NCBI GenBank assembly: GCA_013297775.1
Contig: JAAFIL010000039.1
Span: 1 to 34,281, forward strand
DNA: 34,281 nt
From: Bacteroidota bacterium
Lineage (GTDB): Bacteria > Bacteroidota > Bacteroidia > B-17B0 > Aurantibacillaceae
Direction: 5' to 3'
The notes below the pieces were generated by a model. That model did not search any database. It was not told the origin of the DNA and was given only the letters and a program-made list of their open reading frames with translations. Numbering within the stretch: the stretch's first letter is position 1; every line of letters starts with the position of its first letter. The position numbers and the translations under genes are program-made. Below are positions 4,108 to 30,248 of this stretch, one piece after another.

Positions 4108-5652
4108 TTAAATCTCATCGCCTTTAGCACGACCTAAATAGGTCATTACATTTCGGAAACCGATATAACATTTTGCAGTATCTTGATACTCGTAAGTGCG
4201 AGTACCGTTTTGGAGGTAATAACCAACATCTTTCCAACTGCCACCGCGAATAACTTTACGTTTTAAAACGTTAGCATCTTTTTCTTGTGCTTCGTAAACG
4301 TAATCAGGGTTTAAGTCATGGTCGAAGTCGTACGCCGATTCGTCAAAAGCATTGCTTGTCCATTCGGCGGCATTACCAGCCATGCAATATAAACCATAAT
4401 CGTTAGGGTTATACGAGTAAATATAAAGGGTATGAAAGCCCCCGTCATCAATGTAAGAACCGCGTAAAGGTTTAAAGTTGGCCAAGAAACAGCCCGAAGT
4501 ATTGCGAATGTAAGGACCACCCCAAGGGTAAGGTGATTTTTCTAGACCGCCACGAGCAGCGTATTCCCACTCTGATTCAGTTGGCAAACGAAAATCGTTT
4601 ACAATACTTTGACCTGTTCCAATTAAAAAGTTGTTTAATAATAGTGAACGCCAAACCGAAAATGCGCGGGCTTGTTTCCAAGTTACACCCACCACAGGAT
4701 AGTCGTCGTAGGCGGGATGCCAAAAGTACATATTGGTTAATGGTTCGTTAAAAGAGTAAGTAAAATCATGCACCCACGCCAAGGTATCGGGATATACGTT
4801 AATAATGTCCTTAACAATAAACGCAGCGCGGTCTAAACCTCTACGCTCTTGTGGTACATAATTACCCTGCCCAACAGATACTTGTGTTCTAACGTTGTAA
4901 GTGCCTAATGTTTTAGGGTCTTTGGAAGGATCGCCTACTAAACTTGAGGGCGAACCAGGTGCTCCATTTTGACCGTCGTTTAAGGTTACACCATTTACAT
5001 AGTCAGCCTTCTTATACTCGTGAGCAGCATCTTGAACATCGGATGATTTATTAGGAATAAAGCGATTGCTCTTAGATGCAGCTAATCGAATGTCTATGCG
5101 GTAGTATTCGTAATTTAACTTACGAGTATCAATTTCTTTACGGTTATAAAAACGCTCGCCTTCTGGTAAATAAAGCGGTTGAAGGTCTGCACGGTAATCT
5201 TCATCGGCACTTTCCCAATCAATGCGTTTTTCCCAGTTAATATAAGGGTCTTGTAGATTATTATCGCCTTTGTAAATAGGCCATAAATCCAAAAAATCTT
5301 CTTGTGAAATTTGATAATCTTCTGCATTTCCATTTCCGCCAAATGCCAATAATTTGCGGGCTATTGAATCTCTCACCCAATACACGAATTGTCGGTACTC
5401 ATTATTCGAGATTTCAGAATCATCAATGTAAAATGCCTGAACCGACACCATTTTAGATTTGGTGCTATGTGCCATTGGGGCTTCTTCGTCATCTGGACCC
5501 ATGTGGTAGCTACCCATGGCGATGTAAAGTGTTCCGAACGGATCGGGTTGAAACCACTTCTCGCGACCTTGCACACCAATTAACTCCCCTGTCTTTTTGT
5601 TACATGCGGTAAACAAGGCGGCAAATGAAGCTAATACCAAAAGTTTTTTCAT
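4108..5652 (-). CDS. gldK: GldK, T9SS/gliding lipoprotein
   Basis: The 514-residue protein has a lipoprotein signal (MKKLLVLASFAALFTAC, lipid-bearing Cys17) and a formylglycine-generating-enzyme-like (sulfatase-modifying factor) fold over most of its length. Typical pieces are the Y-I-A-M-G block near residue 48, FRLPTESEWEYAARGG, and the C-terminal VIRGGSW and YIGFRNV. GldK/PorK uses this fold as a structural part of the outer-membrane ring with GldN, not as an enzyme. It is the first gene of gldKLMN and lies 133 bases downstream of the porP-like gene, where a candidate promoter is seen. Confidence 0.95.
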   Translation of the reverse strand: MKKLLVLASFAALFTACNKKTGELIGVQGREKWFQPDPFGTLYIAMGSYHMGPDDEEAPMAHSTKSKMVSVQAFYIDDSEISNNEYRQFVYWVRDSIARKLLAFGGNGNAEDYQISQEDFLDLWPIYKGDNNLQDPYINWEKRIDWESADEDYRADLQPLYLPEGERFYNRKEIDTRKLNYEYYRIDIRLAASKSNRFIPNKSSDVQDAAHEYKKADYVNGVTLNDGQNGAPGSPSSLVGDPSKDPKTLGTYNVRTQVSVGQGNYVPQERRGLDRAAFIVKDIINVYPDTLAWVHDFTYSFNEPLTNMYFWHPAYDDYPVVGVTWKQARAFSVWRSLLLNNFLIGTGQSIVNDFRLPTESEWEYAARGGLEKSPYPWGGPYIRNTSGCFLANFKPLRGSYIDDGGFHTLYIYSYNPNDYGLYCMAGNAAEWTSNAFDESAYDFDHDLNPDYVYEAQEKDANVLKRKVIRGGSWKDVGYYLQNGTRTYEYQDTAKCYIGFRNVMTYLGRAKGDEI

Positions 5653-13902: not shown

Positions 13903-14058
13903 CCGCAATTAGACAGTAGCAGCCAAATTTTTTGGCAAACTATCTGTCTTAGTGCGGATAATCCCGATTTAGTAACTGTTAGGATTTCTTACAAATGATT
14001 TACCTTGAAATCCTTACAGATACTTAATCGCAGACAGTTTCCTCCTTTGAACTGTCTG
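13903..14058. repeat. Cluster of three hairpins in a gene-free stretch
   Basis: H1 (13903-13957): CCGCA/TGCGG at the base, AGACAG/CTGTCT in the middle, GCCAAA/TTTGGC at the top. H2 (13976-14019): CTGTTAGGATTTC with GAAATCCTTACAG, 12 of 13 paired. H3 (14031-14058): CAGACAGTT with AACTGTCTG, perfect. H1 and H3 share the AGACAG/CTGTCT arm. None has a T tract like a terminator. The rest of 13868-14246 is AT-rich with no other visible signal apart from a promoter-like site just before the next frame. Confidence 0.7.
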
Positions 14059-14246
14059 TTTAGGGCCTAACTGAATTTTGCGTTTGGGTTGATTCGTTTT
14101 TGTAAACTACTGACTGTCAAGCCCTCTAACCTACTGATTTTCAACACCCCTAAATATTTGATAACCAAGCCCTAAATCTTACTGTTTTCGATACTTTACT
14201 ACGAAATATAGCATTGTATTGCTTTTAAATGTAGTAACTTTACGGT

Positions 14247-21743: not shown

Positions 21744-21831
21744 GGAGACTTGTCCGAGTGGTTGAAGGAGCACGCCTGGAAAGTGTGTATGCGCCAAAAG
21801 TGCATCGAGAGTTCGAATCTCTCAGTCTCCG
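21744..21831 (+). tRNA. tRNA-Ser(GGA)
   Basis: 88 nt. The acceptor stem is GGAGACT (21744-21750) with AGTCTCC (21824-21830) and discriminator G. The anticodon stem CACGC/GTGTG encloses loop CTGGAAA with anticodon GGA at 21778-21780. A long variable arm and a T arm with GTTCGAATC are present, as expected for serine. CCA is not encoded. Confidence 0.96.
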
Positions 21832-22016
21832 CAAAAAAAATAATCCGTAAATAGACAGTTGAAATCGTAATGAAAGACAAAAGTTATAGGGGAACTTAAA
21901 GTTAAACGATCAATTTTATTAAGCTAAAAAGTTTACGAACGTATCATTTTGAAGAGTTAGACGTTTTATTCTAAACCATCCGATTTCTTGAAAATTACGG
22001 TTTATTAGAAATTTTT

Positions 22017-22256
22017 GGGCGTGCCCCCTATCAAGTTTTACTTAGCTTAGTGTCATAATTACACTCTCAGTTTTCGGGTAACGCAAGTTCTACATGGGGG
22101 TCGGGTCATCCGCTTTAGCCCCTTGGGCGTTTTGCTATTTTGCTACGGCCCGCGCCGAGCCTGCCCAAGTCGCTGCGGGGTCTTCGTGCCTCAGCCGCCT
22201 CGCTCGTGCAAAATTAGCAAACGCCCTTCGGGGGCTGCCGCTACTGCCCCTCACGC
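22017..22256 (+). repeat. GC-rich structured dispersed element, copy 1
   Basis: Conserved blocks: GTGCCCC at the start, GTCGGG near 22100, CGCTTTAGCCC, then CCTCGCTCG, GGGGCTGCCGCT and CCCTCAC at the end. Between them lie stems: CCCCC (22024-22028) with GGGGG (22096-22100), and GGGCGTTTTGCTATTTTGC (22125-22143) with GCAAAATTAGCAAACGCCC (22208-22226). AGCCCC/GGGGCT forms the base of the second stem. Copy 2 (29892-30102) keeps the blocks but has different, still paired, arms. It is GC-rich against AT-rich surroundings. The rest of 21832-22699 holds repeat fragments and no gene. Confidence 0.8.
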
Positions 22257-22307
22257 AGACGGGTTCTCCATAAATTTCTGTTGCATAAGGTGGGCTTAAG
22301 TAGTTTT

Positions 22308-22512
22308 ACAGCATTAGCTATTTTATTCTAATACCAATATCGGTTCTAAAAGATACAAGTTGAACCAGAATTATTTTTCTTTTAGGCGACGAAAAAATTA
22401 TAGGCGTAGCAAGGCCTACGGGTATAATTTTTGAGGAAGTATAAGAGAAAAAGAAACTGGGTCAACGTATCTTTTAGAAATGATGTTGGTATAAAGCCCC
22501 TCTCTCTTAAAA
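22308..22512 (+). repeat. Dispersed repeat copy, split by a MITE
   Basis: ACAGCATTAGCTATTTTATT CTAA (22308-22331), then after the inserted element AAAG-N4-TCTCTCTTAAAAT (to 22512), reproduce the uninterrupted block at 178-223. A further decayed partial copy (GAGTTAGACGTTTTATTCTA and following) lies at about 21954-21995. Confidence 0.75.
22332..22491. mobile_element. MITE-like element, 160 bp, with TAA target duplication
   Basis: Near-full-length palindrome with ends TACCAA/TTGGTA. TTCTAAAAGATAC on the left pairs with GTATCTTTTAGAA on the right, and the centre has AAAAATTATA (22393-22402) with TATAATTTTT (22423-22432) around CGTAG/CTACG. TAA flanks it at 22329-22331 and 22492-22494. The uninterrupted repeat at 178-223 has a single TAA at that point, which directly supports insertion. 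There is no transposase, so it must be moved in trans if active. Confidence 0.85.
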
Positions 22513-22538
22513 TTTGGTATTAGTTCGATTATCGGTAG

Positions 22539-22662
22539 AAAAACTTACAATGCTAAGAGGCGTACCCAGTTACTTGTGATGCGTTGAACCAAAAAATGCA
22601 AAAAACATAGGTATAGCAAAAACTACCATGAGTATTTTAACAAAATAGAATTGTAAGTTTTT
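22539..22662. repeat. Inverted repeat, 13-bp perfect arms
   Basis: AAAAACTTACAAT (22539-22551) and ATTGTAAGTTTTT (22650-22662) are exact reverse complements, with CGG/CCG just outside. The 98-base interior pairs poorly. It may be another small palindromic element; no target duplication is seen. Confidence 0.55.
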
Positions 22663-22699
22663 ATCCGAGATTGGACTAAATTATAAATCAAAGCCACTT

Positions 22700-23215
22700 T
22701 TATTTTTTCTCACTTTCTACTTTTAATAAATCAAGCCATCTTTGCATTCCTTTGTCTAAATTTCTATTGAATGAACTTTTAAAAAGTTTTGCAAAAAAGC
22801 CTTCCATACTTTCATCAACTGAAACAACGGTTTGTCCATTAGTTTCGTTCAATAGCCAATTATGTATAGCAAACATCCCCAACGTTTTCCCTGTCCACCC
22901 AAACCGCTCGTTGGGTTCAACGGTATGCAACGTTGAATGAATTTTTGCTCCGCCAGTTTTCCAGTCAAAAGTAGTTTCTGGTTTTAACTCGCCATTCAAT
23001 TTGGGCTTGCTAATGTCCGTTTGCCAACTTGCCCAATTATTAATGTTGGTCATAACTGCCCATACTTTTTCACTACTCGAATGGATAGTGATGGTCTTAC
23101 TACACTTTACAGGTGCGTTGTTGTTGATACTTTTCATATTTGAATTGTTTTGTGCAAATGAACTTAACGAAACTGTTAAGCTAACTGCGATGAATAAAAT
23201 TGATTTTTTGAACAT
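22700..23215 (-). CDS. SRPBCC (START/Bet v1-like) family protein with signal peptide
   Basis: The 171-residue protein begins with a signal-like segment (1 to about 21, LSSFAQ). The SRPBCC fold follows: SSEKVWAVMTNINNWASWQTDI near 46-68 and TTFDWKTGGAKIHSTLHTVEPNERFGWTG-like strands near 81-110 are typical, and a C-terminal helix closes the pocket. Members bind hydrophobic ligands; the ligand is unknown. A Met at residue 27 could give a cytoplasmic form. A Crp/Fnr gene lies just upstream and an FNR-type box sits in front of this gene. Confidence 0.85.
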   Translation of the reverse strand: MFKKSILFIAVSLTVSLSSFAQNNSNMKSINNNAPVKCSKTITIHSSSEKVWAVMTNINNWASWQTDISKPKLNGELKPETTFDWKTGGAKIHSTLHTVEPNERFGWTGKTLGMFAIHNWLLNETNGQTVVSVDESMEGFFAKLFKSSFNRNLDKGMQRWLDLLKVESEKK

Positions 23216-23241
23216 GGTCTTACTGTTTTAAATTAACAGCA

Positions 23242-23249
23242 CAAAGGTC
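23242..23249 (-). promoter_or_regulatory. Candidate -7 box of the SRPBCC gene
   Basis: On the minus strand it reads GACCTTTG, one specified base off TAnnTTTG, 26 bases before the start codon. It places the start point near 23238. Confidence 0.4.
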
Positions 23250-23270
23250 AAAACAAAATCAAAACTTGCT

Positions 23271-23286
23271 CTTGATAAAAATCAAG
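23271..23286. promoter_or_regulatory. Perfect FNR-type box
   Basis: CTTGATAAAAATCAAG is a perfect palindrome containing TTGAT-N4-ATCAA, the classic FNR consensus. Its centre is about 40 bases upstream of the predicted SRPBCC start point, the usual place for a class II Crp/Fnr activator. It lies between that gene and the Crp/Fnr gene at 23291. Confidence 0.65.
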
Positions 23287-23290
23287 AAGT

Positions 23291-23860
23291 TTATCCAAGC
23301 GTTTTTTTTCTTAATCTACTTAATGTTTCAGGAGTCATACCAAGCATAGAAGCCAAGTATTGCAAAGGTACTTGATTAAACAATTCTTTGTTAAAACTAA
23401 AAAGTTGATTATACCGTTCCTCTGCCGTCATGGAAAGATGCGTCAAAACTCTGTCTTCTAAAATAGTAAAGCACTTAGCAATAAATAATTTCTCTAACTC
23501 TGTCCAACGAGTTACCACCTTACCAATTTGTTGATAATCTTTTTGGTCAATAATGTAAAGTTCGCAGTCCGTTAATGCCTGTATATTCCATCTTGCCGTT
23601 TGTTGAAATACAAAACTTGATAAGTCCACCACAAAATAACCACTTGTTGAAATCCATTTGGTAATTTCTTTATTACCCACAAAAACATACTCTCTAATTA
23701 TACCACTTTGCACAAAGCCGAGTTTATCGCAATGCCTACCCGATTTCAAAAAATAATTGTTCTTCTTTAAAGTTGTTGGTTTAAAGTAAGCACTAATAGT
23801 TGAGAGTTCGTCGTTACTAACCCCAAAGTACGTTTTTATATATTTTTCAAGTTCTGTCAT
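23291..23860 (-). CDS. Crp/Fnr family transcription regulator
   Basis: The 189-residue protein has a cyclic-nucleotide-binding-like beta-roll (about 15-115; LKSGRHCDKLGFVQSGIIREYV) without the cAMP-contacting RE pair of true CRP. A helical linker and a C-terminal winged helix follow (QVPLQYLASMLGMTPETLSR, 165-184). No N-terminal cysteine cluster for an Fe-S centre is visible, so an oxygen-sensing FNR mechanism is not supported. Its target is probably the SRPBCC gene 75 bases downstream. Confidence 0.88.
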   Translation of the reverse strand: MTELEKYIKTYFGVSNDELSTISAYFKPTTLKKNNYFLKSGRHCDKLGFVQSGIIREYVFVGNKEITKWISTSGYFVVDLSSFVFQQTARWNIQALTDCELYIIDQKDYQQIGKVVTRWTELEKLFIAKCFTILEDRVLTHLSMTAEERYNQLFSFNKELFNQVPLQYLASMLGMTPETLSRLRKKTLG

Positions 23861-24001
23861 TCGATCTGTAAAATAATTTTAGTTATATTTTTATTATTTA
23901 AATAAAATAACGTACAAACAATTAGAAAGAAACCATAGCTGGGATAGACTAATTTAGTAATGAACCCGCTATTTTACAAAACTGCCTTATGTTTTCACTC
24001 T

Positions 24002-25681
24002 TTATTCTGTTAGCCAATTTAGTGCCGCTTGTACTATTCCCTTATACCAATCTTTTTCATTATTCGTTGAGTATGCTAGTTCGTTTGAAAGCTCAAAAAA
24101 TCGTTGAACGTGTCTTGGCTCAGGAACATAACTTGCTTTGTACGAATCCTCAACCATCTTTAGAAATACAGTTAAAGGCAAAGGAACTATTGTAGAAGTT
24201 CCGCCATAGTAGCTGATATTCATTTTGTGTAAAGCGTAAAAATGAGCAATACAAGCTTCGTTTATATTTGGTGCAATAAATAAACAATAAGCAGGTTTGT
24301 TAGTTTCTCGTTTTACTTTTGCAAGATGCCTTGTTACTGGTTCGCCTTCTGTTTCATATTGTCGTTGTCCACCTTGCATTGTTACTTCCACGGTTAATCC
24401 AAAGTCTTCATAATCGCAAACAATATCAGCCATATTTCCTTGTGCTGTTGACATTGGATTTCCAAAGTCTTCAAATTTTAAATTTGCTTTAATCGCTCCT
24501 CCATCAAGCATCGTCATTGCTCGCCAAGTATTCCACTCCAACATTAAAGGATTATCGTAGAGTGAATTGTTAAGTATTTGGTCAAATGTTGAATTGATGT
24601 CGTCAAATAAGCGGTAATCTTTAATTGCAGCAACTTGCTCAGTAATAATTTGTTCTTTCCGTTTCTCTAATTCATTAGCAAAAATATCTTTAAGCTGTTG
24701 TAATGTTTCTATTTTTTCAATTTTTACTTTCGGAAATTCTATCTTTATTTTTTGTTCAAGCAATTCTCTAGTATCGGTCAGAAGTACTGGTATTTCTGCG
24801 TTTCCGAGATAAGTTATATATAGTTTTTCGTTATCAATAAATTGCGGCTCTCTGCTAGTGTGTTCCAAAAAATAATCTACTTCTTGAATTTTCTCGGAAA
24901 CGATTGAAATAGATTTTCCAATGTGTGAAATACTTACCAAACCTGTTGCTCTCAAATAACGAACGCAAGCATCTGCATAATCTCGCATATTATTTGCTTT
25001 GGTTTTTAAGAATGTTGATATTGAATTGTCTCTGGTTTGCCTTGTTTTGGTTCTTCCAGAAACAATATCTACGCTGTAAATTTGTTGTAGTTCAGCTTCT
25101 AAATATTCCACACGAAAACGTTTGTAATTTCCTTCGTTTTGCGCTTTTGCTATTCTGAACTGATTAATTTTTTCAACAATTGTATCAAATTCCCGGTAGT
25201 CAACTAACTGCAATCCAAAAATCATCACTTCGTCAAACTTTAAAGAACCGAAATGACGAACTAACCTAAAAAATTCGAGATATGGCTTTACCCAAAAATC
25301 AGCAGAATTAGTAGAGGGTTTGTGATAAGGTGACGGAACTTGAAATTTTAGAAGTTGTCGTAAAAAAACTTCATCTTTTCGTTTTGAATTTATTAATTCT
25401 AAACCTGCTGGTGTCAAACTGATAACTGGGGAGAGAACAACAAAACCGAGTGATTTTGGTGCTCGGTTTATTCTATCTCTTGCACTAAAAGTAGGGTCGT
25501 TTGCACCTTCGCCATTAAAGAAGTTTTCTTCTTTCAATAACTTCATAAATGCAAGTTGCGTTTCTGTATTCCATTTTTGACCTGCAAAACGAGTATTTAA
25601 TAACTCAATTTCAGGAATCATTTTAGCTGGTGTTCGTGGTGATGTGGTAACGAAAATTACTTTACTGTCTATTCTTGCCAT
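24002..25681 (-). CDS. AlwI-family type II restriction endonuclease
   Basis: The 559-residue protein matches the AlwI/PleI/BstNBI-type family: an N-terminal TSPRTPAKMIPEIELL and KWNTETQ block (13-41), then FSARDRINRAPKSLGFV (66-82). A PD-(D/E)xK-like centre follows near residues 384-434 (Glu384, Asp419, and Glu432 in VEVT). Known relatives recognise GGATC or GAGTC and cut at a fixed distance outside, as type IIS enzymes or nickases. It starts 6 bases after the methylase gene, last in the operon, and is full length. Specificity is not readable from sequence. Confidence 0.85.
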   Translation of the reverse strand: MARIDSKVIFVTTSPRTPAKMIPEIELLNTRFAGQKWNTETQLAFMKLLKEENFFNGEGANDPTFSARDRINRAPKSLGFVVLSPVISLTPAGLELINSKRKDEVFLRQLLKFQVPSPYHKPSTNSADFWVKPYLEFFRLVRHFGSLKFDEVMIFGLQLVDYREFDTIVEKINQFRIAKAQNEGNYKRFRVEYLEAELQQIYSVDIVSGRTKTRQTRDNSISTFLKTKANNMRDYADACVRYLRATGLVSISHIGKSISIVSEKIQEVDYFLEHTSREPQFIDNEKLYITYLGNAEIPVLLTDTRELLEQKIKIEFPKVKIEKIETLQQLKDIFANELEKRKEQIITEQVAAIKDYRLFDDINSTFDQILNNSLYDNPLMLEWNTWRAMTMLDGGAIKANLKFEDFGNPMSTAQGNMADIVCDYEDFGLTVEVTMQGGQRQYETEGEPVTRHLAKVKRETNKPAYCLFIAPNINEACIAHFYALHKMNISYYGGTSTIVPLPLTVFLKMVEDSYKASYVPEPRHVQRFFELSNELAYSTNNEKDWYKGIVQAALNWLTE

Positions 25682-25687
25682 AGCTTG

Positions 25688-26596
25688 TTAAAGTGCTAGT
25701 TCTTTTTCAAATTCTAATTGTGGAAAATGTTTTTTGGCAACATTACCGTAATTTGAAATCAAAATATGGCTTGCTTCTGATTTGAATCTATTTCTAATAT
25801 TCACTGCATAAGATTTTCCGTATTCGTCAACAATCATATCTCCATACAACTTTTCAGTTAAAGGTGTTCTACCAATAACCATAAGTGCTTTACATTTAAG
25901 CTGTTTATATTGATTGGCTAACTCAATGTGATTTCTTTCATTGAAGCCATCTTTGTATTCAATATTACCATAATCAGAAAAAACACAGTCATAAGGTGGA
26001 TCTAAAAACATAAAATCATCTTTAGCTGCCATTCTGAATATTTCTGAATAATCAAGATTGTAAATTTCTGTTTTGTTAAGTAAGTTACTATGTGCTTTAG
26101 TAACCAAAGATGTATTTAAGTGAGTATATCTTCCGTATGGTACATTAAACTCTCCTTTTGAGTTATATCTAATCATACCCGAATAGGCCGTTTTGTTAAT
26201 GAAAAAATAAAGCAACGCTTCTGAATACTTTTTTTCTGTCAAATCGTTGAACATATCTCTGATTTGGTAATAGAGCGATTCGTTTCCGTCTTCTACACGT
26301 TCATTTGGTGTTTTGTTTTTCAGTTCTTCAAACTTTTTACGGTTTATCACATAAAGTTTTTCGATTTTCGATAATTCAGTTTTAAGAAGTTCAAAATTGT
26401 CTTTAACGCCCGAATAAAATGAAATTAGTTTTGAGTTAATATCGCTAATGATTGCTTTTTTCGGTTCTAAATGAAAGTATAACGCACCACCACCAAAAAA
26501 TGGTTCAATATATCTTCCACTAAACGCTGGAATATGTTTAATCAAATGTGGAATTTCTTTAGATTTTCCTCCTCTGTATTTGACAAGTGGTTTCAT
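25688..26596 (-). CDS. Dam-like DNA adenine N6-methyltransferase
   Basis: The 302-residue D12-class enzyme shows motif X (KYRGGKS, 6-12), motif I (EPFFGGGAL, 31-39), motif II (SDIN, 51-54) and catalytic motif IV DPPY (199-202). The block NKTAYSGMIRYNSKGEFNVP and YGRY (134-157) closely follows E. coli Dam, suggesting GATC or a GATC-containing target. It protects host DNA from the endonuclease that follows. Its start overlaps the regulator stop by 4 bases. Confidence 0.92.
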   Translation of the reverse strand: MKPLVKYRGGKSKEIPHLIKHIPAFSGRYIEPFFGGGALYFHLEPKKAIISDINSKLISFYSGVKDNFELLKTELSKIEKLYVINRKKFEELKNKTPNERVEDGNESLYYQIRDMFNDLTEKKYSEALLYFFINKTAYSGMIRYNSKGEFNVPYGRYTHLNTSLVTKAHSNLLNKTEIYNLDYSEIFRMAAKDDFMFLDPPYDCVFSDYGNIEYKDGFNERNHIELANQYKQLKCKALMVIGRTPLTEKLYGDMIVDEYGKSYAVNIRNRFKSEASHILISNYGNVAKKHFPQLEFEKELAL

Positions 26597-26904
26597 ACTT
26601 TGGCAGTTTTTCGTTTATATTCAACAATACTTTCTGCAACTACATTTAAAATTTGTGTTGCTTCCTCTTCTTCAGCAATAAGGTCATAAACTTTGTCTGC
26701 CGACCATAAACGAATTAACTCTTTTGAATCAGCTTCGAGCAATTCTGCTAAAACGTTTACTTGTTCTCGTTTTGCCCGTCTATCTCCCTTTTCAATCTTA
26801 CAGTAGGTTGCTGTATCTATTTCTAAAACAGATGCTAATTGCCGTTGAGCGATTTGTTTTTCTTCTCGCAGTGTTTTTATTTTATTTCCAAAAATTGTTG
26901 ACAT
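26593..26904 (-). CDS. XRE-type regulator, putative controller (C) protein of the R-M operon
   Basis: The 103-residue protein has an N-terminal HTH_3 domain (about 6-60: IKTLREEKQIAQRQLASVLE, then TATYCKIEKGDRRAKREQV) and a helical C-terminal tail, somewhat longer than the typical ~80-residue C protein. It is first in the operon, and its stop overlaps the methylase start. As in other R-M systems it probably binds its own promoter and sets the timing of methylase and nuclease. Confidence 0.85.
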   Translation of the reverse strand: MSTIFGNKIKTLREEKQIAQRQLASVLEIDTATYCKIEKGDRRAKREQVNVLAELLEADSKELIRLWSADKVYDLIAEEEEATQILNVVAESIVEYKRKTAKV

Positions 26905-26909
26905 AATTA

Positions 26910-26956
26910 AGTCTTGACGTTATTTGGCAAATATAATTATTGTTTTGTTCAGTCTT
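26910..26956 (-). promoter_or_regulatory. Promoter and possible C-protein boxes of the R-M operon
   Basis: On the minus strand TATATTTG (26928-26935) fully matches TAnnTTTG, 24 bases before the regulator start. Two copies of AAGACT (minus; AGTCTT at 26910-26915 and 26951-26956) flank it, the nearer within the palindrome GTCTTGAC/GTCAAGAC. Flanking sites of this kind would suit C-protein control, but they differ from published C boxes. Confidence 0.4.
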
Positions 26957-27043
26957 CATTTTATTTTTCAGCACGGCAATCTTTTAGAGTGAAACGTCCC
27001 CACTCCCCTCCCTCAAAAAAACCAATCTCTCTCAAACTTCAAA

Positions 27044-28840
27044 TTAAATCAACATACCCACCAAAGTTGCCGTAAACAAACTGGCAATGGTGCCACCAAT
27101 TAAAGCCTTAATGCCTAACTCGCTTAACATGCCTCGCTTACTGGGAGCCAAAGCGCCTATCCCCCCTATCTGAATACCAATACTCGCAAAGTTAGCAAAG
27201 CCACTTAAAATATAAGTACTCATAATAACCGACTTTTGTTCGTGAAATACATTTTGCGACTTCATGCCGCCCATACTAATGTAAGCGTTAAACTCATTGA
27301 TAACCGTTTTCTCGCCCAGTAATTGCCCCACATACAACATATCCTCTTTGCACACCCCCATCGCATACGCAATTAAACTACACGGATACGCAAAAATGGC
27401 TTGCAAACTTAACTCCTTATATTGACCACCCGATATGCCCGCCAGCCACGTATTTATGTTAGTCCACGAACCCACAGTGTATAAAATACGATTAACCATA
27501 AACGTTAACGCAATAAACACAATCAACATAGCCGCCACATTAACCGCCAACTTCAACCCATCTTGAGTACCATTACTGATGGCCTCTAACAAATTCGTTC
27601 CCAATTTTTCTTCACTCAACTCCAATTTCTCATTAATTGGCTCCGTTTGCGGAATCAACATTTTACTAATCACTATGGTAGCTGGCGCACTCATAATGCT
27701 GGCTGCCAACAAATGCTTGGCAAAAAATAATTGCTGCGAGGGATCATCGCCTCCCAAAAATCCTACATAAGCCGCCAAAACGCCACCAGCCGTGTTGGCC
27801 ATGCCGCCCACCATAATACATAACATCTCGCTCCTATTCATCGTCGGTAAAAAATGTTTAATCATTAAAGGCGCCTCCGTTTGTCCTAAAAAAATATTAG
27901 CACTCGTCGAAAGATTTTCGGCACCACTCATCTTCATCACCTTACCCATTAACCAACTTAACCCGTAAACAATTTTTTGTAAAATACCCAAATAATAAAA
28001 AATAGACGTAAGTGCCGAGAAAAATAAAATCGTTGGTAAAATTTGAAACGCAAAAATAAAGCCCATAGAGCCTGTATCCAACAACTTATCGCCAAACACA
28101 AACAACGCGCCACGTTTAGTAAAATCGAGTACCTCCACAAAAAAATTACTGATGTAATCAAAAATAGAAGCCACCAAAGGCACTTTTAAAACCAAAACAG
28201 CAAACAACAATTGAAACAAAATGCCACCAACCACCAAGCGCCAGTTAATAGCTTTCCGATTCGAACTCAATAAAAACAAAATACCTGTTAACACCACAAT
28301 CCCAATAAGTCCTCGCAACAGCGAAGTTAAACTCATGTTGCCTTCTTTAATTTCCACTTTATACCCAAACGAATACGACACTTTCCCATCACTAAACACC
28401 AAACTTTCGGTTGTACTTTTTTTCACTTTAAATGTTTTCACAATGCGCTCGCTATGCAAACCACTTTCATCCACTCGGGTTATCTCTCTATTATTTCTAA
28501 AATAAATAACCTCGGGCTTGTTGTTTTGAACACTATACGCCACCGAATCTATTTGCGTTAGCAAAGGCTTTAAATCATAAGTAAACACTAAGGTACTATC
28601 TAACTTATTGATTGTATAATTTCCATTCATGCGCACCCCTTTGCTAATTAACTCAAAGCGGGTTTTAGTAAGCAACAACGTATCATTTTCTTGAATGCTT
28701 AAACTCCCCGTAACACCTTGCCAAGCCGTCCACTTCTTGGGCAATTCACTACTCACATCTTCGCGCTTTTGACACGAACTAAAAAAAACCAAAGCTATTA
28801 TACTCATTATTAATAGCCCACTCAAACGCATCGCTCTCAT
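27044..28840 (-). CDS. CNT-family nucleoside transporter with N-terminal lipoprotein-like domain
   Basis: The 598-residue protein has a C-terminal concentrative nucleoside transporter core (about 173-598, many helices): GQTEAPLMIKHFL (319-331, nucleoside-contacting QTE), MVGGMANTAGGVLAAYVG, and INEFNAYISM. It imports nucleosides with Na+ or H+. Unlike NupC (~400 residues) it has about 170 extra residues in front: a lipoprotein-type signal (lipobox FFSSC, Cys23) and a beta-rich extracytoplasmic domain. The arrangement is continuous in frame, so it is a natural fusion. No neighbour shares its function. Confidence 0.88.
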   Translation of the reverse strand: MRAMRLSGLLIMSIIALVFFSSCQKREDVSSELPKKWTAWQGVTGSLSIQENDTLLLTKTRFELISKGVRMNGNYTINKLDSTLVFTYDLKPLLTQIDSVAYSVQNNKPEVIYFRNNREITRVDESGLHSERIVKTFKVKKSTTESLVFSDGKVSYSFGYKVEIKEGNMSLTSLLRGLIGIVVLTGILFLLSSNRKAINWRLVVGGILFQLLFAVLVLKVPLVASIFDYISNFFVEVLDFTKRGALFVFGDKLLDTGSMGFIFAFQILPTILFFSALTSIFYYLGILQKIVYGLSWLMGKVMKMSGAENLSTSANIFLGQTEAPLMIKHFLPTMNRSEMLCIMVGGMANTAGGVLAAYVGFLGGDDPSQQLFFAKHLLAASIMSAPATIVISKMLIPQTEPINEKLELSEEKLGTNLLEAISNGTQDGLKLAVNVAAMLIVFIALTFMVNRILYTVGSWTNINTWLAGISGGQYKELSLQAIFAYPCSLIAYAMGVCKEDMLYVGQLLGEKTVINEFNAYISMGGMKSQNVFHEQKSVIMSTYILSGFANFASIGIQIGGIGALAPSKRGMLSELGIKALIGGTIASLFTATLVGMLI

Positions 28841-28961
28841 ATTTAAAATACCAATGATTGAATTTGAAAGATAGCCATTTGTTTTAAAAACCTAATGAAC
28901 AATTCCGTTTTTTTGTAACCTTTTTTATTGAAGCCAATTATGAATATTAAAATTAGACACC

Positions 28962-29831
28962 ATGAAAACCCATCCCAAAATCATCTGCACCGTTGCATTA
29001 CTCATTTGCCCGCTGTTTCAATGGGCCACACTTAAAAAAGTAAATTTTAATACGGCACTTCACAATGGCTTAATTAGTTCACAAGCCACTAGCCACGGTT
29101 CGCACCAAGGCTTTTGCATGGAGGTTACCGTTAAAAATCTAAGCCCCGATTCGTTAGAAGTAAGTTTAGAACCAGGTTTAAAACTTAACTCCGAAAAAGA
29201 AACCGATCAAGATATTATTGTGGTACGCCCCGCCATTTTTGTATTAAGCAAAGGCAAAACACTTCAACAAAGCGTGTACGGCTTTTGTTGCCAAGCTCAC
29301 AACACAAGTCCCTCCAAAGGTGCTAAGTACAACTTCAAATCTAAACCCGACGAAAAATTAAGAATGTTAGCCAACTATCTTTCAACCACCAACCACGATG
29401 ACGAAACCATGCAACGGAGCATTTGGGCCATTAGCGATAGCAACCAAACCGCAAGCATTGGCGCACATAAAAACTTAGACAGTACTATTACTAAACTGCG
29501 CCAACTAGTAAGCCACATCAAAGGCGAACCCATACCCGATTATCTATTAGAACAAAAAACTTATGTGTTACCCAATGGCCGCCTATACACAATCAACGTG
29601 GCGTTGAAAGGCCACATGAGTTACAATAATCCCACCTATCAATACTGCTACTTAAAAATGTATAACGCCCAAAACCAACAAGTCAATGTCGAAATTGGGC
29701 AATGGATAGATGGTACCAATCAAGGTAACTACAACTTCGATGTGCCCGCCAAAACCCTATCCAAAGGCACATACACCCTTAAGCTAGAAGCCAACAACAA
29801 AATACTCGGCGAAAAAAAAGTAATGATTTAA
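28962..29831 (+). CDS. Secreted protein of unknown function
   Basis: The 289-residue protein has a signal-like N terminus (about 1-22). Residues 48-125 form a pattern I recognise from Bacteroidota hypothetical proteins: GFCMEVTVKNLSPDSLEVSL, then a hydrophobic 'V-V' strand, then YGFCCQAHNTSPSKGAKY with conserved cysteines, and an ...AISD... end. The C-terminal part (about 200-289) reads like an Ig-like or T9SS-associated beta domain (GTYTLKLEANNKILGEKKV) but lacks a full sorting signature. It lies alone between two oppositely oriented genes. Confidence 0.75.
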   Translation: MKTHPKIICTVALLICPLFQWATLKKVNFNTALHNGLISSQATSHGSHQGFCMEVTVKNLSPDSLEVSLEPGLKLNSEKETDQDIIVVRPAIFVLSKGKTLQQSVYGFCCQAHNTSPSKGAKYNFKSKPDEKLRMLANYLSTTNHDDETMQRSIWAISDSNQTASIGAHKNLDSTITKLRQLVSHIKGEPIPDYLLEQKTYVLPNGRLYTINVALKGHMSYNNPTYQYCYLKMYNAQNQQVNVEIGQWIDGTNQGNYNFDVPAKTLSKGTYTLKLEANNKILGEKKVMI

Positions 29832-29891
29832 CGATAAAGAACATCTCAAAAAATTAAAAAATAAACATAATAGGTAAAGGTGTTCCATGCT

Positions 29892-30102
29892 GTGCCCCTG
29901 CCAACAAAAATAAGTAACTGAACTCATTGAGATCTCGTGCATAAAATGGATAGTAACGCTAGTGGCAGAGTCGGGCTTTGCGCTTTAGCCCTTCCATTTT
30001 TTGTGGCATTGCTGCGGCTCTGGTGGCTTCCGGTGGTCGCCCCCTCGCTCGCGCAATCGCCAACAAAAAACGTTCAGGGGCTGCCGCTTCAATCCCTCAC
30101 AG
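29892..30102 (+). repeat. GC-rich structured dispersed element, copy 2
   Basis: It has the blocks of copy 1: GTGCCCC, GTCGGG, CGCTTTAGCCC, CCTCGCTCG, GGGGCTGCCGCT and CCCTCAC. Stems: CTGCCA (29898-29903) with TGGCAG (29963-29968); TTTTTTGTGGCATTGC (29997-30012) with GCAATCGCCAACAAAAAA (30053-30070); AGCCC with GGGCT at the base. The arms differ from copy 1 yet remain complementary. Short open frames here are by-products of the GC-rich sequence. The rest of 29832-30248 shows nothing else. Confidence 0.8.
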
Positions 30103-30248
30103 AAAAAAACTCAAGCACCAAAGTACTTATCACCTTAAAAAAATAAATACACCTACCGTTTAATCCAACGTTCTGATTTACGATTAACAAGTCATTTTGG
30201 TATTTCACTTTAGCTCTTCCCAAAAACTTATACCTTTTGATTAATAAT

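Follow-up and report, generated by a model that had tools for sequence, protein, structure and literature searches.

The DNA analysed here, a window of 34,281 nucleotides from a Bacteroidota bacterium (GenBank contig JAAFIL010000039.1 of assembly GCA_013297775.1; contig 62 of the 4.35-Mb draft genome G000), contains two copies of a GC-rich repeat, which we hold with modest confidence to be a dispersed, non-coding, hairpin-forming mobile DNA element of Bacteroidota whose main hairpin corresponds to the Rfam family Flavo-1 and whose stems are swapped between copies. A broader reading, which we regard as tentative and rather doubtful, would see in Flavo-1, instead of an RNA family, the end by which a mobile DNA system found throughout Bacteroidota is recognized: a putative recombinase would act in trans on the folded DNA hairpin and move single elements and, where these form inverted pairs with their 5' ends outward, also islands such as restriction-modification genes, and recombination would swap the stems like cassettes. 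Mechanistically, the element may move as folded DNA, i.e. as a cruciform or as a single strand, a putative enzyme supplied in trans may recognize the conserved loops and ends, and recombination between copies would exchange the stems. We infer this mode of movement from one case of insertion or loss and from patchy copy numbers.

Copy 1 extends from position 22017 to 22256 (GGGCGTG ... CACGC), as judged by aligning homologous copies, and copy 2 from 29890 to 30102 (CTGTG ... CACAG), both on the plus strand. An earlier note on this DNA had described two such copies with six shared blocks, and inspection of the sequence found all six in both copies at the positions given there. When the window was searched for the 3' block pair GGGCTGCCGCT-N5-CCCTCAC with up to 3 mismatches permitted, two places were found, both exact, compared with none in 100 shuffles. 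In the architecture of the element, P1 is the terminal stem, P2 a side hairpin that is optional, and P3 the main hairpin, about 130 nt long, whose two internal loops are conserved and which in some copies contains optional insertions. On the plus strand, GGGCGTG is followed by C-rich closing bases, the side domain, G-rich closing bases and GTCGGG, and then by six variable bases, GCTTTAGCC, a long variable arm, the tip, the partner arm, GGGCTGCCGCY and ATCCCTCACGC. In copy 1, the two strands of P1 (GCGTG at 22019-22023 and CACGC at 22252-22256, plus strand) enclose P2 (22024-22099, plus strand; closing pairs CCCC ... GGGG and a long A+T-rich loop) and P3 (22100-22251, plus strand), the counterpart of the Flavo-1 hairpin, which Rfam places on the opposite strand. 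At the tip of this P3, a 24-nt optional insertion (22149-22172, plus strand; alignment columns 51-74) is missing in other copies, e.g. in L001. In copy 2, P1 is formed by CTGTG (29890-29894) and CACAG (30098-30102), and P2 occupies 29895-29969 (CCCCTGCCA / TGGCAG), all on the plus strand. The arms named in the earlier note indeed pair: CCCC../..GGGG in copy 1 and CTGCCA/TGGCAG in copy 2 close P2, and the arms it had assigned to the centre are those of P3. It had overlooked the terminal stem, which with GCGTG/CACGC in copy 1 and CTGTG/CACAG in copy 2 is likewise changed yet paired.

The overall length of the element ranges from about 85 to 430 bp. Two optional insertions, one at the P3 tip and one near the 3' end, recur across several subfamilies. 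The side domain, counted from GTG to GTCGGG, measures 77-91 nt in 73 of 74 copies of the own genome; in other genomes, P2 may be a short perfect hairpin (e.g. CCCCCGATAAAAATCGGGG in L139), and it is missing (domain length 0-2) in the listed elements of family f29. A P2 closing stem of at least 4 is found in 31 of 76 elements (control mean 13.6, maximum 22), and P2 is regarded as optional because the other 45 lack such a stem. The two internal loops of P3 are, by eye, mostly unpaired with one nearly constant strand, also in other genera.

The stems keep pairing while their sequences change, and the compensatory changes that the earlier note had claimed from two copies extend over many. From the own genome, 90 places matching the core were collected (one of them, L063, being a coding look-alike), of which 74 had both ends; 6 of unusual length were set aside, and of the remaining 68 copies, 45 were hand-chosen for alignment A2. 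From other genomes, 92 of 93 matches were used for the wobble counts given below, and the P1 and P2 tests relied on the 91 matches with at least 100 nt upstream. In the 45 own-genome copies, 93.8% of the P3 cells are paired, compared with 81.9% after shuffling, and 104 cells are changed on both sides, compared with 28 after shuffling (0/500) and 4-51 in controls with slid partners. In the 92 distinct sequences from other genomes, 92.9% are paired versus 65.2% after shuffling, and 471 two-sided cells stand against 133 (0/500), with some in each of the 22 pairs; these values hold for a P3 structure that was hand-written from the same sequences and, in case of the 92 sequences, for an alignment fitted to the model, with a relatedness that survives the shuffling. 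The covariation of P3 over many copies is strong. The two window copies folded singly are unremarkable (z -0.84 and -1.37), and the pair alone would therefore not prove a structure. As to P1, the 3' pentamer has an exact complement among the 110 nt upstream in 76 of the 91 elements across genera (shuffled pentamers: mean 20, maximum 30), with 15 different pentamer pairs such as GCGTG/CACGC, GCGTT/AACGC, GCGGC/GCCGC, GCGGT/ACCGC, CCGTG/CACGG, GTGTG/CACAC and others. This pairing is clear only in the cross-genus comparison: in a free arm alignment of 67 own copies, P1 scored 15.5 (re-dealt arms: mean 14.4, maximum 15.7 of 60) and P2 scored 12.8 (mean 12.4, maximum 13.2 of 60), neither going beyond the best re-dealt value.

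What kind of element is this? The earlier note had regarded it as a candidate for an undescribed element, a view that had to be given up: judged by sequence and covariance-model scores, P3 is the Rfam family Flavo-1 (RF01705), and it was the comparison with Rfam including Flavo-1, suggested in that note, that gave this identity. At gathering scores, Rfam has 0 matches in the window. At a relaxed threshold, the whole Flavo-1 model (positions 1-76) matches across P3 of copy 2 on the minus strand (29965-30108) with 31.9 bits and E 0.0017, below the gathering score of 42, and copy 1 has no match even then. Among 17 other own-genome loci, L013 (32.4 bits) and L049 (30.9 bits) match, the others being unmatched at E 0.1; in L016, L013 and L049, the match covers model positions 1-76, and the internal loops follow one another as in the model. 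Twenty loci of other genera gave 5 Flavo-1 matches at E 0.05, none of which reached 42. R1, a covariance model built from own-genome copies only, finds short elements in other genera, and 10 of 20 such loci pass the Flavo-1 cut-off, so that the family is Flavo-1 and the window copies are long, divergent members of it. The likeness lies in a P3 with the same internal-loop pattern on the minus strand, whereas the differences are P1, the optional P2, the ~130-nt P3 with its optional insertions, the more than 100 core matches in one genome and the signs of a DNA element; moreover, the long forms mostly score under the cut-off. Our verdict is that of a known motif, extended (P1, optional P2, long P3) and reinterpreted. 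As far as the accessible part of the source goes, a review lists Flavo-1 without function (PMC9029176). In the open-licence literature, where the name appears in three papers and the accession in four, there is, as far as it is accessible, no description of Flavo-1 as mobile DNA, most subscription journals being outside this search. At L033, a near-threshold match to the DUF805 RNA (RF03081) was seen at 1133-1211 on the plus strand (44.2 bits, cut-off 51.1).

Rfam files Flavo-1, a 76-position hairpin, as 'Gene; sRNA' (small RNA), and the accessible part of the 2010 publication proposes it as a probable RNA, with the table rating 'RNA? y' (PMC2864571). The corresponding explanation is that the element is a structured RNA, either an sRNA or cis-acting, and that the covariation reflects RNA folding, for which the strong compensatory pairing speaks; we nevertheless consider this unlikely. 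If a transcript folds, G.U pairs should be tolerated, which would result in an excess of G.T on one strand, equivalent to an excess of A.C on the other. In the upper stem, evaluated in 135 of 137 elements, 53 G.T versus 36 A.C were counted with one flanking Watson-Crick pair (p 0.09), and when two such pairs were required the mismatches are balanced at 18 versus 15. Watson-Crick pairs in this stem number 3624. Without the flanking requirement, the count of 151 versus 68 favours G.T. The arms of the 45 own copies contain 23 G.T, 14 A.C and 1093 Watson-Crick pairs. Over the whole P3 of the 137 elements, G.T prevails with 375 versus 150 (124 versus 49 when flanked by one pair, 35 versus 19 when flanked by two), and in the lower stem the ratio is 61 to 7 with one flanking pair and 16 to 0 with two, the latter all being T.G at positions 20-21. 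A G.U wobble in a plus-strand transcript would explain the T.G of the lower stem, though this strand is opposite to that of Rfam: on Rfam's strand the T.G are A.C mismatches and hence no support for the catalogued RNA, but an RNA from the plus strand would fit. This excess made us rate the DNA reading and the mobile-system reading lower and the RNA explanation higher. It is not proof of RNA, because a few shared columns may count one inherited change many times. Columns 21-22 of the 92-sequence alignment account for 47 G.U cells; in 29 of these, Watson-Crick pairing is possible across a bulged base, and in the other 18 it is not. Without these two pairs, hand sums give 458 two-sided cells against 6 one-sided changes to G.U, which speaks against an RNA. 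The tRNA control, with 9 G.T, 0 A.C and 144 Watson-Crick pairs in 7 tRNAs, is small, and the tRNA finder itself favours G.T.

The gene context likewise bears on the RNA explanation. The 61 own copies with callable neighbours show no bias, with 20 in convergent, 16 and 11 in the two co-directional, and 14 in divergent arrangements, and thus no preference for a gene strand; 1 of 63 own copies lies inside an open reading frame (ORF). In a Flavobacterium transcriptome, the Flavo-1 matches showed, according to the accessible part of the report, no distinction between sense and antisense orientation relative to transcribed regions, and many were outside of them (PMC9723704), which also argues against an RNA. 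The balance leans towards an element that is more probably DNA than RNA. Of the two options left by the earlier note, a structured RNA or a DNA hairpin, the DNA hairpin is favoured by the upper-stem balance, the unbiased orientation and the island breaks described below, and the T.G excess counts against it.

The dispersed distribution in Bacteroidota, which the earlier note had surmised, is upheld by the own genome as well as class-wide. The core pattern (up to 3 mismatches) has 132 matches in the own genome, split 73 to 59 between the two strands, and the reversed pattern has 3. The same-genus genome G027 has 68 core matches (control 6), and the remaining same-genus genomes searched have 0-9, near their controls. 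In two same-genus genomes with few core matches, the exact core of copy 1, GTCGGGTCATCCGCTTTAGCC, is present (G014:C35:5605 and G010:C158:1832). R1 matches occur in at least 43 of 247 genomes of the class and at least 22 of 135 genera, values that represent a floor, as at most 13 candidates were scored per genome and G014 with its one exact core match was missed. Thus far the family is found in Bacteroidota, class-wide by R1, and the first 14 records listed for one window protein are Bacteroidota as well. At the HAD-family gene that adjoins copy 2, the element is present at 1 of 30 same-genus loci, which is the window's own. Such patchy abundance is usual for mobile repeats. Several of the listed own copies sit at contig ends, as expected since repeats break assemblies.

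Where the element occupies the same site in related genomes, its stems can differ. In genus g9, it is found upstream of one conserved gene in 6 of 8 genomes with different arms, and two genomes lack it. At a second site, the element is found in three of three species (G157, G188 and G243) at one and the same position. The arms are in large part common to G188 and G243, whose differences include a T.A to C.G exchange, and G157 has different arms and a different P2. At a third site, G157 and G243 agree in 95% of 148 nt, and G188 has another stem (all three sites by eye). In the own genome, 4 of 5 multi-member side-domain clusters pair with 2 or 3 main-hairpin clusters. The simplest account is that copies recombine with each other, with the conserved boxes as anchors, and that both arms thereby change together. 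Such swapping of stems would explain the between-copy covariation without stepwise compensation. The selection on structure that the earlier note had postulated is one part of the picture: whole stems are, by eye, replaced as blocks at orthologous sites, so that stepwise compensatory mutation need not be the source of a large share of the between-copy covariation.

Could the DNA copying itself generate this pattern? A polymerase that switches templates within a palindrome could rewrite one arm from the other, and the element would then be spread by ordinary duplication. The mostly two-sided Watson-Crick replacements with few one-sided steps agree with this, as does the complete difference that arms may show at a shared site, but a correction of arms should erase the internal loops, which by eye stay unpaired in other genera too, and P1 covaries as well, though it is short. 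This makes template switching an improbable source of the covariation. The T.A to C.G exchange between G188 and G243 is, by eye, one two-sided single change, which may have arisen one side at a time. It is also conceivable that the element serves the host, e.g. as a site for a nucleoid or recombination protein, and is kept by selection with occasional duplication. The shared sites are in favour of this, as they are found again in species whose neighbouring genes are ~81-89% alike (6 of 8 and 3 of 3 genomes), but 204 of the 247 class genomes gave no R1 match, most same-genus counts are near the control, and no gene context is preferred; we therefore assign a low probability to a host function.

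For the mobile DNA element, a comparison of two sister genomes is informative. At L369 of G157, two elements are located 8.5 kb apart in inverted orientation with their 5' ends outward (5410-5545 on the plus and 14046-14179 on the minus strand). By Pfam, genes between them match a restriction helicase (N terminus of a type I R protein), a Fic protein and an N6 methylase that carries a type I specificity domain; a weak helix-turn-helix match below the cut-off and two ORFs without Pfam match are also present. In G188, the 8.8-kb segment 5372-14217 is missing between the same two genes, a short-chain dehydrogenase gene and YceI, which are neighbours there, without an R1 match. Aligned pieces of the inner segment, ~4.5 kb in total, exist elsewhere in G188, in a region whose fetched 12-kb stretch has no R1 matches. 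The joined outer flanks are colinear with G188, with breaks at the GGGCGTG ends (5372 and 14217 of L369), the right one being sharp. By this comparison, the segment is a candidate element-bounded unit that one lineage acquired by insertion or the other lost cleanly. At L371, the colinearity between G157 and G188 stops short of an element by 38 nt. Further inverted pairs that lie close together with their 5' ends outward were found at L326, L348 and L125. In the own genome, neighbours at less than 10 kb, among the 100 of 132 places listed, are oriented outward in 4, inward in 3 and the same way in 7 cases, and thus without bias.

Which enzyme could move such an element? One candidate is the Y1 (HUH) transposase associated with repetitive extragenic palindromic (REP) sequences, which uses folded single-stranded DNA as substrate, and the element would then be REP-like. 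It shares with REPs and bacterial interspersed mosaic elements (BIMEs), which are associated with RAYT (Y1) transposases, that it is an imperfect, GC-rich palindrome with internal mismatches, intergenic, high in copy number and patchy between relatives. Y1 matches are present in 18 of 24 element-bearing genomes searched, and at 3 of 32 Y1 loci an element lies ~300-480 bases from the Y1 match, the 32 loci examined being only part of the Y1 matches found. However, a Y1 match is lacking in 6 of the 24 genomes, 29 of the 32 loci lack the element, including both in the own genome, where one Y1 is interrupted by a stop, and the three positive loci carry, by eye, their own short GACCCC..GGGGTC palindromes. 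Moreover, the conserved ends are GGGCGTG/CACGC and not the GTAG or CGTC tags of REPs, and the element is with ~85 to 430 bp longer than REPs with 20-40 bp (PMC3733652, as far as accessible). Movement by a REP-associated Y1 transposase thus seems quite unlikely, and the link to Y1/RAYT was rejected, as 29 of 32 loci have no element and the 3 positives are all beside other palindromes. In genus g9, Y1 genes (L159, L161, L162) are surrounded by GACCCC..GGGGTC palindromes that resemble their own REPs. An RNA of a retron or group II intron was also rejected, as the own genome has no RVT_1 match at E 0.001; a controlling enzyme may be encoded elsewhere.

Beyond the T.G excess and the small tRNA control, several points weigh against a mobile DNA element. 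The island is a single case of insertion or loss, which could be mimicked by an element landing beside an island or by copies recombining with each other. Its left break is supported by only ~20 alignable bases, and no target duplication is clear, TGT (3 bp) being the most that could be repeated. The copies at shared sites across ~81-89% gene identity indicate long persistence besides movement. No transposase is among the 25 of 164 Pfam families listed for 140 proteins that neighbour own copies (at most 2 per locus, from 78 of the 90 collected loci, with a heuristic ORF caller), and none is among the 25 of 136 families listed for the comparison set of 102 proteins from 20 other stretches. An excess of defence genes is not seen either: PADLOC at 1e-15 finds at most 3 proteins among the neighbours (SduA, REase_II, mad3), and in the comparison set mad3 in 3 members as well as PDC-S05 and PDC-S23 (best 25 of 33 matches listed). 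Copy 2, finally, has no match in the plasmid and phage collections.

Among other known mobile elements, miniature inverted-repeat transposable elements (MITEs) are similar in being non-coding and dispersed with short terminal inverted repeats. In contrast to MITEs, the ends of the element consist only of a short covarying stem (exact pentamer partners in 76 of 91 cases) instead of a constant terminal repeat, and there is neither an established target duplication, with one empty site (the 8.8-kb unit) and no more than 3 bp duplicated, nor an autonomous partner found. Integron attC sites are folded sites with conserved ends and structure and a variable centre. The element resembles them in these respects, but it is dispersed in either orientation and not arranged in cassette arrays. 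If the mobile DNA reading is correct, a candidate structured RNA from comparative genomics would be a DNA element, and covariation alone could not separate folded RNA from folded DNA; the wobble-symmetry test could be used on further orphan RNA families. A putative recombinase in Bacteroidota would also be implied, as would a means by which islands, e.g. restriction-modification systems, are carried.

The surroundings of the copies contain further repeats. Copy 1 is embedded in a larger repeat block (21955-22331, plus strand), for which a direct repeat is part of the evidence and which belongs to a GTCGGGTCATCC subfamily with related A+T-rich sequence on either side. At L018, a 431-bp block of this subfamily with related A+T-rich ends is flanked by a 16-bp direct repeat (TTAAACCGTCAATAGA), possibly a target duplication. 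A separate 162-bp inverted-repeat element (22331-22492; 26-nt arms, 88% complementary) abuts the block of copy 1, and its sequence also borders or interrupts copies in L007, L008, L057, L065, L079 and L080. The region 21840-21900, between a tRNA-Ser (21744-21832) and copy 1, resembles repeats in L013 and L087 (GTAAATAGACAGTTGAAATCGTAGTGAAAGAC), and another palindromic repeat (CTCGTCCTTGTTTAGCGAAGCG ... CAAACAAGGACGAG) is found downstream of the element in L061, L066 and L056. The own genome harbours several nested palindromic repeat families, and the exact ends of the element are blurred there by other nested repeats. Between the two copies of the window, 24002-26904 encodes an AlwI-type restriction enzyme, a D12-class adenine methylase and a helix-turn-helix protein (Pfam).

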